Of a stretch of 32,773 nt of DNA, positions 2,591 through 31,250 are shown one piece after another; within the stretch, counting starts at the first letter, position 1, and each line of letters starts with the position of its first letter. The position numbers and the translations under genes are program-made. The notes under the pieces were generated by a model, which saw nothing but the letters and a program-made list of their open reading frames with translations, was not told the origin of the DNA and ran no database searches. This DNA comes from a virus, in IMG/VR virus record IMGVR_UViG_3300028835_001974, positions 1 through 32,773 of that record. One strand, given 5' to 3'.

Positions 2591-4369
2591 TTATTTCTTT
2601 TTCGATTTCTGACTAAAATCAACCTTGACCGTATTGTCTGACTTCCTTACCACCTTCGTTTTCTTGGCGGCCTTCTTTTCCTCGATAGAAACCTGTTCGG
2701 CCATCGATTTATTGCCGGCCGCGGCCGTCTTAATCATTCCTCTTTTTACCGGTTTCCTGGCGGCCTTCGCCGGCTTAGCTTTTTTCGCGGCTTTCTTTTT
2801 CTTCACAGAGCCGTCCTCATTCAGACCCGCCCATGACTTCGGAACGCCGAAACCCTTTGACTTCGAGACTTCCGTGAACATCTTGTCGATATCTACCCCG
2901 AGCAGTTTTGCTAACCACCGGGCCGTCGCGACATAATGCCCCCCGATTTGTGTCACCGGTCCGCCATAAGCTATCATATTTCTCAACGTCGGCTTGACGC
3001 TAACCCATAGCAGCTCCAGGACCTTTTTGCATGCGTCCTTAGACGGCCGCACCGGATTGACCAGGGATGCAAAAAGTTTTCTGCCTTCCATAACAGAGAA
3101 ACCAGTTTGATTTCCGTAAATCGCAGCCAGGGCCATGACCGCCGTGACCTTATCTTTGCAAGTGAGGCAGTCCAGCTTTGCCGCATCAACCTTTTCACCG
3201 AGCAGCAGCAGGACCTGAGCCCAGCGCTTGCCCTTCAATTGTTCCCGGCGTTCCTTGAGCGGGGTCGCCCTGCCTTTTTGCTTGGGGGCACCGCCCCCAG
3301 GACGGGCGAAACTTTTCTCCCGGACAAAAACAATCGACCCCGCACCCTTGCCGCCTACCACCAGGGACGGAATAGCATTCTTCGCGCCCTTGGTCGATTT
3401 GTTGACATCCTCCGGATCATACACACGGCCGAATTTCTTCGTAAGGTTTTCCTTTTCTTCCGTCGATAGATGCTCGGTGGAACAAAAGGTCAGGTTTGAA
3501 TATTTCTCACTGAAATGCTTGGCCTGCTGCTGCAGGTAAATCATCATTTTGTTGTTCCAGCAAAGCGGGTCCAGGCAGCGGTCCTTGGTGTCGATTTGGT
3601 TTTCCAGAGCACCGAACCATAACAACGGTTGGGCACCGCTCCGATGTTTGCAATCCGTACAGGCCCCGGCCTTCGGTAACAACAGCGCATCATCCAGGTT
3701 CCAGCTGGCCTTATTTAGAAGCATCAACGAATCGCTGAGCCTGCGGTCCAGGTCCTTAACCGAAACGTTCTCCCATTGCCACGGTCGTTTTTGGATGCCT
3801 TTCAGCAATTCCTTCTGGGCATCGGCCGGCAGCCGGGCAATCAAAGTGAGATGCCCTACCGACCAGTCGTACAAAGAAAACGACCGGCGCCATCCCGGAA
3901 CGAGATTTCTGTGAATGTTCGCCCGTAACATTACCCACTGAGGGGTTTGGCCAATCAAACTACCTATGAGCCTGGCATCGCCCTTGAGATTTTCCATGCA
4001 CCGGGAAATTTCCTCGACTTCCTCGAGGGGCAAAAGTTTCTCGTGGAACTTGTTCTCGGTAATGGTCAAAAGCATAGCGACCTGATAATCAATCCCCCGG
4101 TGAACGATAGCCGGGATTGTTTGGTGTTTGAGAAGTTTGCTGGCCAGCCACCGCCGCTCACCACAACGAATCTCAAAAATCTCGTAAGGTCCCTTCTTTT
4201 TTTGCCCTGGCTGAGGCCAGACATGAATCGGAATCTGTACCCCGCTTGCCTTTATGCTTTCCTTCAGCTCAATAAAGCTGGCCGACTTGGTGTCGATGTG
4301 CCGGGCATTGTCCTTACTCGGGACGATTTTGGCAATCGGCATTTCATGATTTAAAAGATGACTACTCAT
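2591..4369 (-). CDS. ParB/Spo0J-like protein, long, with Cys4 site and Lys-rich tail
   Basis: The 592-residue protein begins with a ParB N-terminal domain. GERRWLASKLL (residues 70-80) matches the GERR nucleotide-binding box and ENKFHEKLLPLEE (105-117) the ENxxR-type box of ParB CTPases. A helical DNA-binding segment follows (about 130-215). CTDCKHRSG with Cys237/Cys240 and DRCLDPLCW with Cys265/Cys270 form a probable metal site, a feature of phage and plasmid ParB-like proteins. The last 80 residues are Lys/Ala repeats and probably bind DNA nonspecifically. AAAGGAG lies 11 bases before ATG 4369. There is no ParA gene in the window. Its position next to the putative origin suggests replication, segregation or early regulation; canonical partitioning is not shown. 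Confidence 0.8.
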   Translation of the reverse strand: MSSHLLNHEMPIAKIVPSKDNARHIDTKSASFIELKESIKASGVQIPIHVWPQPGQKKKGPYEIFEIRCGERRWLASKLLKHQTIPAIVHRGIDYQVAMLLTITENKFHEKLLPLEEVEEISRCMENLKGDARLIGSLIGQTPQWVMLRANIHRNLVPGWRRSFSLYDWSVGHLTLIARLPADAQKELLKGIQKRPWQWENVSVKDLDRRLSDSLMLLNKASWNLDDALLLPKAGACTDCKHRSGAQPLLWFGALENQIDTKDRCLDPLCWNNKMMIYLQQQAKHFSEKYSNLTFCSTEHLSTEEKENLTKKFGRVYDPEDVNKSTKGAKNAIPSLVVGGKGAGSIVFVREKSFARPGGGAPKQKGRATPLKERREQLKGKRWAQVLLLLGEKVDAAKLDCLTCKDKVTAVMALAAIYGNQTGFSVMEGRKLFASLVNPVRPSKDACKKVLELLWVSVKPTLRNMIAYGGPVTQIGGHYVATARWLAKLLGVDIDKMFTEVSKSKGFGVPKSWAGLNEDGSVKKKKAAKKAKPAKAARKPVKRGMIKTAAAGNKSMAEQVSIEEKKAAKKTKVVRKSDNTVKVDFSQKSKKK

Positions 4370-4829: not shown

Positions 4830-5010
4830 TTATCCACAAGTCCCGACGGCGAAAAAAGAGCCTTTTTTCCTTTTCTCTTAATTTTCTTTAACTTTAATCT
4901 ATGGGGGGGGTCTCAGACCCCCGGTGCCGAGGTAATCAGACCCCCACCCGGGGGTCTCAGACCCCCGGTGCCCGATAGAAAACTCACAGATATTTCACAG
5001 TTTACCCACA
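4830..5010. other. putative replication origin
   Basis: A perfect DnaA box TTATCCACA sits at 4830-4838 and a one-mismatch box TTACCCACA at 5002-5010. Between them lie a pyrimidine- and AT-rich tract (4858-4902), suitable as an unwinding element, and palindromic direct repeats (4906-4972). Just beyond is a run of 10-bp repeats (5066-5115). A winged-helix gene and a ParB-like gene follow immediately. Together these are the parts expected of an origin. The 540-base gap 4786-5323 has no convincing gene; the frames in it are low-complexity Gly/Arg/Pro translations of the repeats. Confidence 0.55.
4906..4972. repeat. two 23-bp palindromic direct repeats with a third inverted stem
   Basis: The palindrome GGGGGTCTCAGACCCCC, followed by GGTGCC, occurs at 4906-4928 and again at 4950-4972, exactly 44 bp apart (about four helical turns). 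Between them AGACCCCC at 4938-4945 pairs with GGGGGTCT at 4950-4957, so the region can form alternative hairpins. The spacing and symmetry suggest dimer-binding sites (iterons or operators), most simply for the adjacent winged-helix or ParB-like protein. Confidence 0.7.
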
Positions 5011-5065
5011 TTAACATTCTCCCGGCCCGGCCCGCCATATCCGCGGCCCCGGGCCATGCCTTTGC

Positions 5066-5115
5066 TTCGCCGAGCTTCGCCGAGCATCGCCGAGCAACGC
5101 CGAGCATCGCCGAGC
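5066..5115. repeat. five tandem 10-bp repeats (NNCGCCGAGC)
   Basis: Five head-to-tail copies of a 10-base unit, NNCGCCGAGC, where the first two bases are TT, TT, AT, AA and AT. The array is flanked by related GCCATGCCTTTGC (5053-5065) and GCCATGCTTTGC (5133-5144). The helical-period spacing would put the same face of each unit on one side of the DNA. It lies upstream of the early operon and downstream of the DnaA-box region, so it may be an iteron cluster or a DNA-bending site. Confidence 0.7.
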
Positions 5116-6796: not shown

Positions 6797-6798
6797 TT

Positions 6799-6818
6799 AT
6801 GTCACCAGGTAATGACAT
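6799..6818. promoter_or_regulatory. inverted repeat ATGTCA-N8-TGACAT before the early operon
   Basis: A perfect 6-bp inverted repeat with an 8-base spacer lies three bases upstream of the first early gene. The same half-sites, in the other order (TGACAT-TAG-ATGTCA), occur at 32658-32672 upstream of the late operon. The shared half-sites at the heads of the two main transcription units suggest binding by one phage regulator. A weak promoter candidate (TTTAGG, 17 bases, CATAAT) lies further upstream at about 6855-6885. Confidence 0.4.
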
Positions 6819-6991
6819 TCGATGCGGAAATGGGCGAAGGGGGGCAACGTAACATATATTATGGGACGTTGGCCGCCCAGCCTAAACCCAAACCACTCAA
6901 ATGTCAATATTTCCTTCTTACGATTCATTAACAGAATCTTCTAAATATTCACGTATTTGAGCCATGTTCGATACCACTAACATCCGGGATT

Positions 6992-7058
6992 AAAAAAAGT
7001 GAGGGGCCGGTTGACCCGCACGCTTCGAGCAGAATACTCGCAGAACACGCCCGGCCCC
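6992..7058 (-). terminator. putative terminator closing the late operon
   Basis: GGGGCCGG and CCGGCCCC pair around a loop of about 40 bases that itself holds a CGAG/CTCG stem. On the minus strand the structure is followed by TCAC and seven T residues (the A-run at 6992-6998). The arrangement fits an intrinsic terminator with a branched loop between the late genes and the early operon. The long loop makes it weaker than a textbook case. The surrounding gap 6797-7428 holds no convincing gene. Confidence 0.45.
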
Positions 7059-7346
7059 ATAATTGCTGGTGAAGTTTTCGCACGCGGGTCATTGCCATAT
7101 TCTGATTCCTATCCAAATCCCGATAAGGCCCGGCCAAGGCCGGACCAACAAAGACTCAATCAAACAAAGCACACCGAACTTACACCATTCAAACCCGTCA
7201 AACAAGGGAATTCTGGGAAAAATCTGCTTAAAGTGCATAAAACCGACCAAATCGGCGATGGTGAGCGCCGATCGAACAAAATATTTTCCCCGGCCCCCAA
7301 GTCCCACACCCCACAGCTTACCCCCAGAAGGCCCCAGATTGACCAG

Positions 7347-7380
7347 GGGTCGATTTTTCACCCCACCTGCCACCAATAAC
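7347..7380 (-). repeat. 34-bp conserved intergenic element, copy A
   Basis: This stretch matches 28035-28068 at 33 of 34 positions. Read on the minus strand it begins GTTATTGGTGGCAGG and ends AAAAATCGACCC. In this copy GGGGT and ACCCC pair around GAAAAATCG. The other copy pairs GTGGG with CCCAC instead, so the sequence changes still allow a hairpin. Both copies lie in non-coding gaps in the same orientation. A regulatory RNA, a protein-binding site or a recombination site are all possible. Confidence 0.7.
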
Positions 7381-7428
7381 GCCCGCTGTAGTGATTTAGG
7401 CGGTCCCAGGCCCAATTTCCGTATTCTC

Positions 7429-7512: not shown

Positions 7513-7644
7513 ATGAAAAAAATAATGAGAATTGTGATGTTGATATTGCTGTTAGTTCTGCTCAGTGGATGTTCCGGATCTTCAGACGAAAAAATATCTG
7601 TTGAACCAAAACCCGAATCAATCAAAGGCCATTATAACTTTTAG
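7513..7644 (+). CDS. small lipoprotein (43 aa)
   Basis: The frame starts at ATG 7513 after AAAGGACAGGACG and stops with TAG at 7644. The N-terminus is MKKIMRIVMLI followed by a Leu-rich stretch and the lipobox LLSGC at residues 16-20, so Cys20 is the predicted lipid-modified residue after signal peptidase II cleavage. The mature part is only 24 residues (SGSSDEKIS..., ending GHYNF). Ser21 after the Cys is compatible with outer-membrane sorting in Gram-negative hosts. It is the first gene of a two-gene plus-strand unit with its own promoter. Small phage lipoproteins include superinfection-exclusion factors and Rz1-type spanins, but neither can be assigned: there is no Rz partner and no Pro-rich region. 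Confidence 0.72.
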   Translation: MKKIMRIVMLILLLVLLSGCSGSSDEKISVEPKPESIKGHYNF

Positions 7645-11752: not shown

Positions 11753-13539
11753 AAATACACCTTTTCCACTACCGATGGGTCCAACCCTAATTCACCGCCC
11801 CAGTGAACGGCATTTCCTTTACCGTAACAATCTTCGAAAGTACCCGTGCATACCTGGTCCGCTTCTGGTGCACTTTTGTCATACTGACATCTTGGTCCTC
11901 CGAACAATGAAGGTGTCGCTTCAGGACACATGCTTGAACTAAACATTTGTAACGGGAACCGTTGTGTAAGTGGATTCGGGACGCCGAGTGTAAATGTTAC
12001 CCATTCGGTGTCACTTTCCGATGCAAGATTTTCATAGTCGAACTCAAGTGCTTTGACAGTTGAAGAGAGATACTTTTCGTTGACCCTTATCAGTCTAACC
12101 GCCGCACCGAGTGCACCTTCTGTTTCATTAACCAGATTCTCTATTTTACGGTTCACATCCTGGGCCACCCGCATTGTCACACGCGGGATGGAGCCATCTC
12201 CACTAAAGATTTGTTCGCCTATCTGGAGATTGAACTTGTCAAAATCATTCCCGTCGTAAGGTACATCTTCAGTATTGCGTGCAATCCTTACAGTTGCCTG
12301 TCCAGGTATCGCGATCTGGACTAACCATAACCATGCACCCCCGCTGTAAGGGTCAATCAAATGCTGTTGCATGAACGGCGGAATTTCAATGTAAATTATA
12401 TAACCTACATCTGTTGCGATCGCTGCTTCAATAATTGAACCGGTTAGAATCCTCATACCGTTAACTAAATCAGCCGCATTGACACTCTCTGAAATGATGA
12501 CTGGAAAGATACCAGCACAGCTTTGTAAATCAAAAGCAGTTGCAGATTCGGTTAGATTCGCTACGAGAACTCTCAAAGAATCTTGTACTTCTGAAACATT
12601 TGTGTTTTCAGCTATGCTCGCCAGTAGTAAGAGCGACCTATCTACCAAATCAGCGGCGTTCGTTGTTTCAGCCAGACCCGCTACTAATACTCGTAGACCG
12701 TTAACCACGTCTTCGGCACTCGCACTCTCAGAGATAGCGGTATTAAAATTGGCTATACAGCTTTGTGTATCAGTGGCACCGGCGTCCTCAGAAATAGCAG
12801 CAAGAAAATTACCCGCACAACTCTGTGTATCCTCTGCTTGGGTGGTTTCTTCCGGTACCGAGCATAAGACGTCTGGATGTTGTGCCCAGCTCGGTGTGTT
12901 AATAGGCGTTAAATCATACCCGCCTCTTTTATCATCATCATCACTAACCAAATCCCAATATGCGATAAGACCATTAGGATAAACTGAAGGCCGCTCTTCA
13001 GCTACCAAACCTGGTAAAATATTCGCTTCAAAATAATCAGCTTGGTCACTTGCAGTTGCTCCAGGCAAATACCACAGGTCCCAGATGGCCGCCTCTGCTA
13101 TCTGTCCGGTCAAATGGGCTTCTACAGGATCACGGCCAAAAGCGCCTAAAATAAATCTATCAAGATTAACCAGCGTTAAGTTACCTGAATTGGTATTCTT
13201 GTTTGCAGCGTTTATCAAAATACGTCTATCAGTTGCAGATACAAATAATCCACAGATGTGATACCAAGTGACATCTGCAATGACTTGAGCACATTTAGCA
13301 TAATTTCTATTTGCATTGTTACGAGTTTCGATATAACACTTATCTTCCGTTGTACTAAACCATAAGGAATGCACATATTTAGTTGCAGACTTATCACGTA
13401 CCTCCATAATACCGCTTGTTGAAGAAGTGACATTTACCTCGATGCGAAACCTACAAGCCATCACAAACGGATACTCTGTAACGGGAGCCTCTTCTCTAAT
13501 TAAGTATTCAGATTGTGTATGGTCTAATGCCCGAGCCAT
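11749..13539 (-). CDS. minor tail protein, LamG-like domain fused to lambda L-like protein
   Basis: The 596-residue protein has three parts. Residues 1-220 look like a concanavalin/LamG fold (FVMACRFRIEV, DVTWYHICGLFV, LTGQIAEAAIWD, NGLIAYWDL). Residues 230-377 are a 20-residue repeat. Residues 385-596 resemble lambda minor tail protein L: a DPYSGGAWLWLVQIAIPG start and a C-terminal Cys cluster (Cys538, Cys551, Cys564, Cys571). In lambda gpL four C-terminal Cys hold a [4Fe-4S] cluster, so the same is likely here. It sits between the M-like and J-like genes, the lambda L slot. The extra N-terminal 385 residues are unusual and may display a sugar-binding module at the tail tip. Confidence 0.78.
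   Translation of the reverse strand: MARALDHTQSEYLIREEAPVTEYPFVMACRFRIEVNVTSSTSGIMEVRDKSATKYVHSLWFSTTEDKCYIETRNNANRNYAKCAQVIADVTWYHICGLFVSATDRRILINAANKNTNSGNLTLVNLDRFILGAFGRDPVEAHLTGQIAEAAIWDLWYLPGATASDQADYFEANILPGLVAEERPSVYPNGLIAYWDLVSDDDDKRGGYDLTPINTPSWAQHPDVLCSVPEETTQAEDTQSCAGNFLAAISEDAGATDTQSCIANFNTAISESASAEDVVNGLRVLVAGLAETTNAADLVDRSLLLLASIAENTNVSEVQDSLRVLVANLTESATAFDLQSCAGIFPVIISESVNAADLVNGMRILTGSIIEAAIATDVGYIIYIEIPPFMQQHLIDPYSGGAWLWLVQIAIPGQATVRIARNTEDVPYDGNDFDKFNLQIGEQIFSGDGSIPRVTMRVAQDVNRKIENLVNETEGALGAAVRLIRVNEKYLSSTVKALEFDYENLASESDTEWVTFTLGVPNPLTQRFPLQMFSSSMCPEATPSLFGGPRCQYDKSAPEADQVCTGTFEDCYGKGNAVHWGGELGLDPSVVEKVYL
12433..12852 (-). repeat. seven exact-length 20-residue (60-bp) coding repeats in the L-like gene
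   Basis: Residues 230-369 form seven units of exactly 20 amino acids, with a partial eighth (370-377). The pattern is [S/A/T]-E-x3-A-x-D-x11-[I/L], with units such as SESVNAADLVNGMRILTGSI. Similar Ala/Ser/Asp repeats occur in tail and fibre proteins and probably form a rigid spacer. The units differ considerably at DNA level, showing age or selection rather than recent duplication. Confidence 0.8.
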
Positions 13540-13560
13540 TATAATTTTCCTCTATACGAA

Positions 13561-14145
13561 TTACAGGCTCGCAGTATAAGTGACATTCAATGTGTCGGTA
13601 TTTGCCACTACCTTGTCACCGCCGGTGAACAATCCTGCCGAGTAAAGTGTACCACTTGTATTATCAATCGTGTTGACAGCACCGGTATGAAATACAAGGA
13701 AACAACCCTTCACAGTTCCCGCTCCGGTGAAGACGAAAGCAAGTGCCGCTGAAAGTGCTTTGGAACCAGCCGCCGCTGCGTCCCAGGCACAGGTTTTTCT
13801 CGGTGCTGTATAAGTGGGAGCATTTGTATCGCCGGCTTCTTTCCATCCAGCATGAGAAGTCATTGTATCACCCGCTGCCACTTCCGACCAGTCAACCGAA
13901 CTAATCAGACCCATAAACGGCCCGGTCACTGTATAGGCGGCTCCAGCAAGATACTCGTCTAATGCTTTGTTCATGCCTATCGTACAGACCACGTTCTCAA
14001 TGGTGTCACGCCATTTGAGATTGCCGTCCTTGTCAAAGCACTCGGCGACAAATCTTCCATGAGCTTTTGCACCTTCCGTCATGTCTGATTTACGTACCAG
14101 GGCAGCACTACATCTACTGTTTGCATTTGCTTTTTCGGTGTTCAT
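13561..14145 (-). CDS. phage structural protein of unknown role, probably tail-associated (194 aa)
   Basis: The start at ATG 14145 is chosen because AAGGAG lies eight bases upstream. Longer readings would overlap the M-like gene. The protein has a pattern I have seen in many phage structural modules: RFVAECFDKDGNLKWRDTIEN, then FMGLISSVDW, GDTMTSHAGW, and a C-terminal GTLYSAGLFTGGDKVV. It is beta-rich and probably part of the virion, but the family has no firm role. It lies between the M-like and L-like genes, where lambda has no gene, so it may be a tip or decoration component. Confidence 0.65.
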   Translation of the reverse strand: MNTEKANANSRCSAALVRKSDMTEGAKAHGRFVAECFDKDGNLKWRDTIENVVCTIGMNKALDEYLAGAAYTVTGPFMGLISSVDWSEVAAGDTMTSHAGWKEAGDTNAPTYTAPRKTCAWDAAAAGSKALSAALAFVFTGAGTVKGCFLVFHTGAVNTIDNTSGTLYSAGLFTGGDKVVANTDTLNVTYTASL

Positions 14146-27161: not shown

Positions 27162-27727
27162 TAGGGATTGGCCTCAAAAAATGCTTTGGCAAAACAGGGT
27201 GGGGTCTTTGCTCTTACCTCCGCCCTTGATAAATTCTGTACACTTTTGACACTTTTGATTGAATTGATTTTTTCCCATTCCTGGAAAAGACCAGGTGGCT
27301 CTGTGTATATTATTTTTGGTGGATTATAATAACCCCACAAGTCAGTTGGCTTTCCAAGATTATCTCCGAATTGCCAGTACCAAATAGTCAGGGGCGGCTT
27401 GCCTAAAAATTGCCTCAAGAAACCTCTGGGATTCTCAAGACACCAAAAAGCCGGATGGCATTGCCAGATAATATTTAGACAAGACTTAACTATTTCCATC
27501 GACCCGTCAAAGTCTCTTGGCTTATTGCCTTTTGCCAAGCTGAATTCCGTACAGGGTGGAGCTGCAAGAATACCATAGACATTATCCGGTGGCTCGTAAG
27601 TCCGCACGTCATAATTGGGCAAAGTGATATTCCGCACATCATATCCCGCAGCTGCATACCAAGCAGACCAAGCCCCTGTACCCCCGCATAAATCCAAAAT
27701 TTTCTTACCAGCATTATTTTTTGCCAT
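27161..27727 (-). CDS. compact C5-cytosine DNA methyltransferase-like protein
   Basis: At 188 residues this is much shorter than a standard Dcm-type enzyme (about 300-450). It has motif I (LDLCGGTGAWSAWYAAAGY, 11-29), the motif IV loop APPCTEFS (56-63) with Cys59 as the expected nucleophile, and motif VI LENPRG (97-102). No target recognition domain is seen, and the C-terminal 50 residues are short. Similar compact proteins are common in phages. It could protect phage DNA from restriction, modify another pyrimidine position, or be a methyltransferase-like enzyme with a different substrate. It is in an insert between terminase and gpW-like genes, alongside the zinc ribbon. Confidence 0.78.
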   Translation of the reverse strand: MAKNNAGKKILDLCGGTGAWSAWYAAAGYDVRNITLPNYDVRTYEPPDNVYGILAAPPCTEFSLAKGNKPRDFDGSMEIVKSCLNIIWQCHPAFWCLENPRGFLRQFLGKPPLTIWYWQFGDNLGKPTDLWGYYNPPKIIYTEPPGLFQEWEKINSIKSVKSVQNLSRAEVRAKTPPCFAKAFFEANP

Positions 27728-27974
27728 AGCGTGACTTCCGGTCCCAGCTCAAGCCCCGGGCCTCTGACATGAAGCCCGACCAGACACCCAGCCGGCCCAA
27801 TCGCAAAACTTGTGATAACCGATCAATCAAAAACGAAATGTTCAATTGGCTAAATAGATATTTAAGCACATGACAACCCACAAAAAAATCATACACCCAA
27901 CTGAAAACGATGGCCCTGTACCCGTGAATCCTAATAAACTGCCATGGCCTGATATTTGACTTTTTACTTGTCAT
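27714..27974 (-). CDS. hypothetical protein upstream of the methyltransferase (86 aa)
   Basis: The ATG at 27974 is preceded by AAAGG, and is preferred to an in-frame GTG two codons upstream. The protein has one hydrophobic aromatic stretch (YRAIVFSWVYDFFVGCHVLKYLF, shown here in part) and a basic C-terminus ending DRKSRYGKK. Its last 14 bases overlap the methyltransferase start, so the genes are coupled. No family is recognised. It might be a small membrane-associated or DNA-binding partner. Confidence 0.5.
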   Translation of the reverse strand: MTSKKSNIRPWQFIRIHGYRAIVFSWVYDFFVGCHVLKYLFSQLNISFLIDRLSQVLRLGRLGVWSGFMSEARGLSWDRKSRYGKK

Positions 27975-28021
27975 TTCCACTCACCTTTCAAAATAACCCC
28001 ATATTAGCCCGATTCGGTTCC

Positions 28022-28075
28022 ACAGGGTGCCCGTGGGTCGATTTTTCAGCCCACCTGCCACCAATAACACCCTGT
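28022..28075 (-). repeat. 34-bp conserved intergenic element, copy B, within a larger hairpin
   Basis: The core at 28035-28068 matches copy A (7347-7380) at 33 of 34 bases. It is enclosed by the perfect inverted repeat ACAGGGTG (28022-28029) and CACCCTGT (28068-28075). Inside, GTGGG and CCCAC form a second stem around the CTGAAAAATCGA loop. The element lies in the 170-base gap after the large terminase gene, in the same minus-strand orientation as copy A. The structured, conserved core and its absence from coding regions suggest an RNA or protein-binding signal. Confidence 0.72.
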
Positions 28076-28144
28076 TTTTCAATCCTGCCAGTTTTCTCAC
28101 CTTTCTGCGCAAATATGCCCGATTTTTCCCCATTTTTATTCCGG

Positions 28145-30049
28145 TCACAGTTTCGGCAGATCATCCAGCCATCCAGACCCCCGGGACCTTTCTTTTTTTG
28201 GCGGTTCCTGTTTTACCGCCTCCAGGTCCGGCAACGAATGAGCGCCGAGCTGCTCAGCGGCAAAAGACGAATACACTTTGCAGTCCCAGACGTGATTTGC
28301 CCGATGTTCTTTTTTAAGAGCCCAGACCAGATCGTACCGTTGCCTTCGTGGATGGCGAATAGTGCGCTGTTCCTCGGCGGTCAAGTGACTTAATACCTCA
28401 TCATCCGTATCGGCATGAAGATGCCAATAACCAGGACCCGGGACGGCCGATTCGAACAACAGCCTATGCAGCCGGTTTTTATAATCGTTCACGTTCAGAT
28501 CATACCGGATCATCGTGCCCCCGGCGATTTTGACCGCCCGATACGGCCGGGTCCGGACGCTGGGGTCACCACGCACCGGGATGACATAGAGCTCCTTACA
28601 TTGGGCACAAAAATCCTTCGCCACTTCCGGCCGGTACCCGGTATCGATTGCCGATAAGTTAATCCAGAACTTCAGCTCTTTATCGACCGCTGATACCCAG
28701 GTCGTTTTGAGAAACCTTCTGAGAACATCGAGATTTTCCAGCTCCTTCGTATCGCCGGTCTCCAGCCGGCCCTCAAAAATGGACCAGACCTCGGACAGAT
28801 ATCCCCAGCCGTCCACGCTTACCCAAACGTGGTCGATTTGAATATCGATACCGCAACTCAAAAGTTGAACGCCGGCCGGCACTGTTCTTTTTCTATACGT
28901 TCCTATGTGGGAACGCAGAACTATTTTGCTTGTCACCTTTTCGGTTTCTCTCCAGGGCTCCGCCAATTGAGAATTGATGTAATCCTGCAGGGGCTTAATA
29001 TTGCCAACCTTTTTGGCCATTACCGCATTCGCCCAATCGCCGGCCAAATCATCCATCGTTTGAAAAACCGGATGCAGCATGAGCGCCGAGACCCTGCAGC
29101 TGTGATGGCTGGTCACCGGTATTTTTCCGACAATCAAACCGGCCGGGTTCACCTTGCATCCCCACGGAGCATACAGGCCGCTGCTTACCGCATCCCACCT
29201 TTGATATTCGTCCCAGGGATTGCTGCACGCCGGGCAAACGTATCTCGCGTGACCCCCGGCCCGGTAAACTTCCGGATGGAGCCAATTCCCCGACTTGGTT
29301 TTATCGCACTTCAAATTGACCTGTTTCATAATATGATAGACGCCACAGCACGGACACCTCACAAACCATTCGTTCTTATCACCCTTCATAAACTCCGCAT
29401 CGAATATATCACCCTGGCCCACCGGCGATGACATGATAAGCAGCTTCGAACGGGTGCGAAAGGTCCGCTGTCGTTTCTTGGCCAGGCTATACGGGTCGGC
29501 TTCCTTCCCGGTGGACTGCGGAAACTTGGCCGCCTCATCAAGGATCACGATACAAACCGGATTGTCAGACAGGGCGGCCGGGCTGTTGGCCCAGGCGATA
29601 TACAAAATCATATTGTCGAGAACTGTTTCCTTGCCGATGTTCAGATTATCGAGCTTGCCGCCCAGGTGAGTTAACAGGGACGGGGTCGATTTGAACATCG
29701 GCCGCAAGCGCGTGGCAATTCTCCGATTTGCATCGTCCTCTCGCGGCATGGCAATCAGAAGCGGTGCGGGATTCACATCGATGGTCCGGCCGATCAAGAT
29801 ATTGCTCAGTTCGGTTTTTGCCGATTGGCTGCAGGCACACAATGTCACCTGCCGGGTAGCCATATCCGAAAGCCAACGCATCGGAGCCATGAGATACGGG
29901 ACATAATCATTGGACCAGGGACCCGCCAGCTCGGCGGTTTCCTTTGGCAAGATGTACCGGTCCTCCGCCCATTCAGACAACGATGGGATTTCGTGACTGA
30001 CCTGTACATCCATCATTTCTCCCTGGGGCCCCATCCCATTAAGTACCAT
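28145..30049 (-). CDS. A: terminase large subunit, lambda A-like (GpA family)
   Basis: The 634-residue packaging motor has the GpA ATPase: a Walker A-like CSQSAKTE (73-80), the coupling loop AMPREDDANRR (100-110), Walker B IVILDEAAK (167-175) and SSPVGQGDIFD (208-217). Two CxxC knuckles (Cys232/Cys235 and Cys272/Cys275) are typical of the family. The C-terminal nuclease starts LSCGIDIQIDHVWVSVDGWG with Asp402 and Asp406 as likely metal ligands, and IDTGYRP follows. The start at 30049 overlaps the small subunit by 11 bases; ATG at 30016 or 30013, with GGGAG before it, is more likely. It translocates DNA and cuts it at the packaging site. Confidence 0.92.
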   Translation of the reverse strand: MVLNGMGPQGEMMDVQVSHEIPSLSEWAEDRYILPKETAELAGPWSNDYVPYLMAPMRWLSDMATRQVTLCACSQSAKTELSNILIGRTIDVNPAPLLIAMPREDDANRRIATRLRPMFKSTPSLLTHLGGKLDNLNIGKETVLDNMILYIAWANSPAALSDNPVCIVILDEAAKFPQSTGKEADPYSLAKKRQRTFRTRSKLLIMSSPVGQGDIFDAEFMKGDKNEWFVRCPCCGVYHIMKQVNLKCDKTKSGNWLHPEVYRAGGHARYVCPACSNPWDEYQRWDAVSSGLYAPWGCKVNPAGLIVGKIPVTSHHSCRVSALMLHPVFQTMDDLAGDWANAVMAKKVGNIKPLQDYINSQLAEPWRETEKVTSKIVLRSHIGTYRKRTVPAGVQLLSCGIDIQIDHVWVSVDGWGYLSEVWSIFEGRLETGDTKELENLDVLRRFLKTTWVSAVDKELKFWINLSAIDTGYRPEVAKDFCAQCKELYVIPVRGDPSVRTRPYRAVKIAGGTMIRYDLNVNDYKNRLHRLLFESAVPGPGYWHLHADTDDEVLSHLTAEEQRTIRHPRRQRYDLVWALKKEHRANHVWDCKVYSSFAAEQLGAHSLPDLEAVKQEPPKKERSRGSGWLDDLPKL

Positions 30050-31250
30050 GGCCAGGCCCCCCTTTCTTTGGCTTCAAACTATTCATAAAGTCGACCAGTT
30101 CCTTTTCCTTATCGGCAGGCAAATGCAACTCTTTTGGGACCCTTGCAGTCGAGGCGTGTAAATCCTGAAAAAACCGCTTATGAATCTCGATAATCTTTTC
30201 GCGGGGCTGACCAACGCAAAGCCTCGATAGCTCAACGTTGCCGCGTTCACAAAACGAAATGATATGCTGAGCCCAAGCCACCAGTGATATCATGACCTCG
30301 TTTCGATCGAGTACTTCATTTCGATGGCGGGCCAGCTCTACCCTCAGCTTTTCGGCCTTCATCGCTTTAAGCGGGTCCAGGTGAATTTCCGGTCCCTCCG
30401 CCTTTTCAAACCCCTTCAGCAAAAATTCTTCGAACCACGCCAGGAAAATACTGATGTCAAAAGTCTTGTCTGCATTTCGCGGCAATCCGTATTTGGTAAA
30501 CCAGTTATGAATTGTGGCCCTGGTCCTGCCCGTTATCTCAGTGATTTGTAGAATCGATATCCGGGATAGATCGGTCCCGCCCTTGGTTTTTTCGTCCTGC
30601 AGGAAACTCTCCACCGCCCGGACCGCATCCGGCTTTCCTTCCCGGGCGGCCTCAATAATGGCCTGTTTGATCTCGAGCATAATTCCGAGCTGTGTCTGAT
30701 CCCACAAGTCTGCGACTTCCACATCTTCGTCCAGCATCGCCTGCAGGCCCCGGGCGCTGGCAAAGCCTAATCTCTTGGCCGCTTCCGGAACACTTGCCCC
30801 GTTCTTTGCCAGGTCCCTGAGATTTCGCAGGAACCGGCCGCGGTCCCAGGCCTCTCTGAGCCTTGGATGTTTCTTGAATATTTCAGCCAAAGATATGCGG
30901 ATTTTGATTGCGGCATCCGCCTCGGTCAGATTCTCACATTCGAGTCCCAGTCTCCGGATTTCCGCCACGTCGACAGGCGGCCTGGGAGCCCGCTTTTTTT
31001 TGGTCTTTTCTTTTTTCTTTGCCTTTTTTTTTCTATGCCCCGCCGGCGGAGCTCCTTTCGGTTTTTTCTTTTTCGTCCGGGCCTCCGAAGGCAGCTTGGC
31101 CTTTGCAAGTACTTTGCCGGCCGCCTTCCGTTCGTACCTTTTCAACTCGAGCAGCTCCGCCCGGGATAGTGGCTTGTTTTCCTTGACCTTCCCCAGCAAA
31201 AACAAATGCCTTTGTTTCGCCGCAATCTCTATGGTCGAAAGTTTAGCCAA
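30039..31250 (-). CDS. terminase small subunit-like, Nu1-type HTH, long
   Basis: The 403-residue protein precedes the large terminase, as the lambda Nu1 gene does. It is longer than Nu1 (181 residues). A Lys/Arg-rich tail (about 48-92) precedes helical DNA-binding segments (SVPEAAKRLGFASARGLQAML, about 153-173). A second helix-turn-helix (ISILQITEITGRTRATIHNWF, then KYGLPRN) resembles the Nu1 winged helix. The last part (MKAEKLRVELARHRNEVLDRNEV) is the oligomerisation-type helix seen in Nu1. Start is TTG 31250, nine bases after the methyltransferase stop. Recognition of the packaging site is inferred from family and place. Confidence 0.78.
   Translation of the reverse strand: MAKLSTIEIAAKQRHLFLLGKVKENKPLSRAELLELKRYERKAAGKVLAKAKLPSEARTKKKKPKGAPPAGHRKKKAKKKEKTKKKRAPRPPVDVAEIRRLGLECENLTEADAAIKIRISLAEIFKKHPRLREAWDRGRFLRNLRDLAKNGASVPEAAKRLGFASARGLQAMLDEDVEVADLWDQTQLGIMLEIKQAIIEAAREGKPDAVRAVESFLQDEKTKGGTDLSRISILQITEITGRTRATIHNWFTKYGLPRNADKTFDISIFLAWFEEFLLKGFEKAEGPEIHLDPLKAMKAEKLRVELARHRNEVLDRNEVMISLVAWAQHIISFCERGNVELSRLCVGQPREKIIEIHKRFFQDLHASTARVPKELHLPADKEKELVDFMNSLKPKKGGPGHGT

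Follow-up and report, generated by a model that had tools for sequence, protein, structure and literature searches.

The systems closest to the element described here differ in form. In HK022 put and lambda nut, early operons begin with a structured RNA. The late-promoter sites of P2 Ogr and Mu C are dyads of ~20 bp beside the promoter. The stoperators of mycobacteriophage L5 and the SAS/ESAS sequences of cluster K are 13-17 bp long and present in many copies. The element resembles each of these in part. Like put and nut, it occurs in two copies per phage genome, is sense-oriented to transcription and exists in phage-specific variants that are matched within a genome; unlike them, it has no conserved structure or boxA, and its copy B lies inside the structural gene region. 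It resembles the Ogr and C sites, in which the same short sequence precedes separate late units and is read by a phage activator, but it is ~100 bp long, asymmetric and devoid of a recognisable -10/-35. With the stoperators and SAS/ESAS it shares the character of an asymmetric intergenic repeat kept in a single orientation relative to transcription, the difference being that here there are two copies of ~100 bp. Finally, RfaH ops/JUMPstart, found where long operons begin, is a linear signal as the element is, and its GGyGGyAG resembles GGCGGTAG, a likeness of 6-8 bases that lies within chance.

The window (the whole stretch of DNA analysed) is an IMG/VR virus record, linear and 32,773 bp long, with its main genes on the minus strand. 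It encodes a GpA-type terminase, a portal protein, a tail protein similar to lambda J, a ParB-like protein (2591-4369) and a ParB_N-methylase fusion, and an HTH protein (30039-31250) is, with the ParB-like protein, a DNA-binding candidate. The combination of terminase, portal, J-like tail and ParB genes identifies the virus as a lambda-type siphophage. Its TerL shows at most 28% identity to isolate phages among the matches listed, and a search of isolate phages and plasmids with the element DNA gave no match; the phage has no close cultured relative.

An earlier note, made from the sequence of the window, had reported a 34-bp repeat at two intergenic sites on the same strand, about 20.7 kb apart and differing at one base. 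This was confirmed: 33 of the 34 bases are identical, the start-to-start spacing is 20,688 bp and both copies lie in gaps of a mostly minus-strand gene layout. By our own arithmetic, the chance of a 33/34 match in 33 kb is ~1e-10. In the window, the likeness between the two sites extends over 53 nt (85% identity), while that of site B to the B sites of relatives spans 27963-28113. The 34-bp repeat is the core of a larger non-coding element of ~90-110 nt. The features of the window referred to below are as follows.

7347-7380, strand not assigned: 34-bp repeat, copy A, GGGTCGATTTTTCACCCCACCTGCCACCAATAAC
28035-28068, strand not assigned: 34-bp repeat, copy B, GGGTCGATTTTTCAGCCCACCTGCCACCAATAAC
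7307..7389, minus strand: element copy A (site A), HMM E 7e-17, contains 7347-7380
27990..28079, minus strand: element copy B (site B), HMM E 2.5e-21, contains 28035-28068
28145..30049, minus strand: terminase large subunit (GpA type), PF05876 4.7e-51, PF20454 3.1e-42
27714..27974, minus strand: small gene of ~85 aa with no family match, directly downstream of B
7513..7644, plus strand: small lipoprotein-like gene, reading away from A
6988-7095, minus strand: structured RNA candidate (H-type pseudoknot, inner hairpin and U-tract) downstream of A, with covariation

Relatives were gathered by exact-pattern, terminase and integrase searches, and the element was found in ~18 related loci, nearly all of them phage contigs, Sedimentisphaerales MAGs included. 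The relatives comprise a named MAG, Sedimentisphaerales bacterium (L035/L059, Planctomycetota), as well as G064, a further genome from that order with a 39.6-kb phage contig; the phages carrying the element are apparently phages of Planctomycetota (Sedimentisphaerales MAGs). The earlier suggestion that the element is host-derived was not borne out, as the 161 genomes searched from the order of the MAG and the 397 from its class gave convincing matches only in G006 and G064 (both in phage contigs) and in G089. A dispersed host repeat (REP-like) was rejected, given that there are one or two copies, placed in phage contigs or in one apparently mobile region. Weak host matches near uvrB (G189) and tuf/secE (G197) were judged to be chance after correction for 397 genomes. 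In G089 (L084 19525-19623, minus strand), a B-type copy is located on a bacterial contig beside a phage-like zinc-ribbon gene, with an outer-membrane-protein-like gene in the neighbourhood and, at a distance of 7 kb, an integrase-like ORF; this locus was read as a mobile region and is possibly an unrecognised mobile element.

The two sites have fixed positions. Site B lies between the TerL gene and the head genes: in the window it is flanked by TerL, whose stop codon adjoins it, and by the small gene 27714..27974, homologues of which come after B in G005 and G006, while in G064 a zinc-ribbon gene separates the terminase from B. Site A lies past the tail genes, towards the integrase and upstream (in the minus direction) of the pseudoknot RNA, at 230-560 nt from the 3' end of the convergent integrase gene (G004, G005 and G064). 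A promoter-like TTGACT was seen by eye ~45 nt from A, near the lipoprotein-like gene, and G004 has a 42-aa gene resembling the latter. A and B bracket the capsid-and-tail (structural) block of ~20 kb, and both are always in the sense orientation of the structural genes. Three near-complete genomes (window, G005 and G064) carry exactly one A and one B, and an HMM scan of these three found no further degenerate copies. The fourth, G004, has A, a shortened copy A' 1 kb off, and no B. Moreover, B is absent from many related terminase loci (e.g. L051, L052, L054, L104-L122), so the wider group can do without the site and the element is patchy. In G004 (L055 760-1873), an insert of ~1 kb with three small genes (one HTH) is situated between two core copies of ~50 nt, in the second of which a promoter-like TTGACA hexamer replaces TCGAAC.

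In gene orientation, the canonical core, GTTATTGGTGGCAGG-N7-AAAATCGAACACAGGGCATCCTGGGG, precedes a third block, and the three stand at constant spacing, GTTATTGGTGGCAGG-N7-AAAATCGAACACAGGGCATCCTGGGG-N~9-GGCGAATATGGGGTT. The third block is site-specific (GGCGAATATGGGGTT at B sites and GGAAGCTGTGGGGTGTG at A sites), and the conserved flanks outside the core are particular to each class of site. In an ungapped comparison of 49 core bases, the B site of G064 shares 84% identity with those of L012, L053 and G006, compared with ~35% (saturated) at the TerL 4-fold sites of G064 versus the others, which indicates that this DNA is under selection or laterally exchanged. Inspection of the blocks by eye found no conserved -35/-10, and sigma54, ECF and sigma70 promoter patterns, parS-like dyads, G-quadruplexes and Chi/ops resemblance, also sought by eye, were not consistent across copies.

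Ungapped comparisons between sites revealed private variants common to A and B of one phage in three of the four testable pairs. The two window sites, winA and winB, are mutual best matches (86%) with TGGGnTGAAAAATCGACCC common to both. While agreeing with winA, winB has diverged from its nearest relative, L014B, faster in the core (71% identity) than silent sites have (81%). L100A and L048B, on two contigs taken as one phage only from their same sample and similar composition, have a very different core in common; they too are mutual best matches (82%, no other site exceeding 61%), with 24 nt exactly alike (AATCGCTCTACGAGGCTTCTGGGG). G005B is closest to G005A (92%), and G064 is the exception, its A and B being 53% alike. 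The core types are TCGACCC in the window, CGCTCTACGAGGCTT in L048/L100 and, as the canonical form, CGAACACAGGGCATCC. Private variants common to A and B point to a cognate trans-acting factor or to gene conversion, which the data cannot separate.

The pseudoknot RNA, located between site A and the 3' end of int, was identified in the window, G004, G005, G064 and L100, at the following positions in the relatives.

L055 521-626, minus strand: pseudoknot RNA
L058 5915-6020, plus strand: pseudoknot RNA
L086 11125-11230, minus strand: pseudoknot RNA
L100 1645-1766, minus strand: pseudoknot RNA

It comprises stems of 12 and 8 bp with a 5-bp hairpin inside, and at least four of the five phages have a U-rich tract after it. 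Pairs are formed in 96% of 125 cells, against ~36% after sliding by one, and 0 of 500 shuffles did as well; the percentage is somewhat favoured because the helices were drawn by eye from the same sequences, and the 18 double-change cells are stronger evidence. Matches in a search with the pseudoknot model were confined to these five phages, and the window RNA had no match in Rfam. This RNA is a conserved neighbour of A; with strong covariation in five phages behind it, it is possibly a more surprising object than the paired element. An RBS-like sequence and an ATG precede it in several phages.

The preferred reading, to which we assign a probability of roughly 0.4, is that the element is a cis-acting recognition site, linear (unstructured) and phage-specific, that measures ~90-110 bp and controls the structural/late region. 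Site B occurs once between the terminase and head genes, and site A once between the tail genes and the pseudoknot-RNA/integrase region. Both would be read by one phage-specific factor (a protein or an antisense-type RNA), which presumably touches DNA rather than RNA and may act on how the structural/late region is transcribed; for example, the morphogenesis operon could have its promoter-activator or antitermination-loading site at B, and the RNA/terminal unit could have such a site at A. This reading draws on the fixed location, the two copies per genome, the constraint, the lack of a frame or fold, the persistence without int/attP and the co-variation of A and B. Against it stand the 53% likeness of A and B in G064, G004 without B, the many relatives in which B is missing and the lack of a conserved -35/-10, as well as the fact that gene conversion could yield the same co-variation. 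More tentatively, the recognition site may be part of a two-site specificity system, in which a phage-encoded factor would read a ~100-bp asymmetric site flanking the morphogenesis operon, and factor and sites would switch specificity together. Exchanging the natural specificity variants of the core would be a way to identify the factor that reads them. A literature search on gene regulation in these phages, apparently of Planctomycetota, found nothing, and the element offers a defined, testable control point in them.

It is doubtful that the element is instead a linear signal at the RNA level, serving processing, put/nut-type antitermination or RNA pairing in the structural-gene transcript. 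Both copies are always sense to the structural genes and lie in untranslated gaps, and a true structured RNA is found downstream of A, but no more pairing than expected was seen between the pseudoknot RNA and either site (z -0.8 to +1.0). The hairpin around GAAAAATCG, described earlier as preserved between the copies, survives only in the sense that pairing is possible in the window; it uses two different registers (GGGGT/ACCCC in A, GTGGG/CCCAC in B) and is kept in no relative. Single-sequence folding gave z -2.8 for copy B (plus strand) and ~0 for copy A, whereas the family means are -0.24 and -0.31 on the two strands and the RNAalifold consensus reaches only -2.15 kcal/mol. A 9-pair consensus, derived from the same alignment on which it was scored, is paired in 88.9% of cells versus 63% when slid by one column, which favours an RNA signal, but in our reading of the alignment L047 and G089 have a broken helix 2 with no compensating change. 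In view of the weak consensus fold, the mean z of ~-0.3 and the uncompensated breaks, a conserved structured regulatory RNA (put-like) was rejected. No Rfam covariance model matched the element above its gathering score, the matches at E<=5 being spurious lncRNA fragments. A small protein gene or decayed coding sequence is highly improbable. In a few B copies a 32-aa frame (VAELKNRALLVAGG...) has some changes at third positions, but it is hit by stops or frameshifts in G004A, L047, L062, L049 and G005B; the column entropy by codon phase (0.54/0.41/0.50) shows no periodicity, and there is no above-threshold Pfam match or isolate match. The earlier impression that translations of similar sequence appear as spurious proteins was weakly checked here: several frames are open owing to a strand rich in G and poor in T, but none stays open in every copy and no Pfam match is credible. 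The earlier interpretation is supported in part, the element being real, conserved, non-coding and devoid of an Rfam match or isolate relative.

A recombination site or module boundary, with direct repeats exchanging or inserting accessory genes or the structural module, is unlikely. The sites lie on either side of the ~20-kb structural block, next to variable genes, and the insert of G004, including an HTH gene, is bracketed by two copies; however, A' of G004 is shortened, attP lies elsewhere, the flanks outside the core remain A-type or B-type, and no A/B hybrid, A x B junction or 20-kb deletion product was seen. We consider it quite unlikely that gene conversion keeps A and B alike with just one site functional: the shared private variants and the limitation of the matched tract to the core speak for it, but G064A and G064B still differ though both are clearly conserved elements, and each site class retains its own conserved flank. 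Least probable, to the point of being hardly credible, is a packaging (cos) or integration (attP) site, in spite of B adjoining the terminase and of the short distance from A to the 3' end of int in relatives, since cos ends and attP map elsewhere.

Window 32773: coinciding contig end
L057 1 and L058 19356: coinciding contig ends
L086 1 and L087 19581: coinciding contig ends
L059 15382: coinciding contig end
L058 6971, minus strand: 5' half of tRNA-Gly
L086 9885, plus strand: 5' half of tRNA-Gly
L100 199, plus strand: 5' half of tRNA-Gly

In the window, G005, G006 and G064, a contig end lies 85-171 bp upstream of the ParB-methylase gene. As these ends coincide and the two G064 ends share an 11-nt terminal repeat (GTTAAAAAAAT), they look like cos cohesive ends; the element as cos was rejected because these ends lie upstream of the methylase gene. 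The 5' half of tRNA-Gly just upstream of int in G005, G064 and L100 is the probable attP. In the window (6797-7000), both int and this attP are lost, the best tblastn match to int having an E of 0.016 over 35 aa. The element as attP/attB was likewise rejected, since the tRNA-Gly half is the probable attP and the window keeps A and B without int or attP.

Two further sequence motifs were noted. Downstream of B, a palindrome CTTACCAGATTCTGGTAAG (CTTACCAATGTTTGGTAAG in L061) occurs just 5' of a TTGACA promoter-like site (L087 ~13480-13580, L061 ~2760-2830) and is a possible operator of an accessory operon. In the window, the regions 4906-4972 and 5064-5113 contain a perfect 23-nt repeat, GGGGGTCTCAGACCCCCGGTGCC, in two copies 44 nt apart, together with tandem 10-nt units, GCTTCGCCGA.
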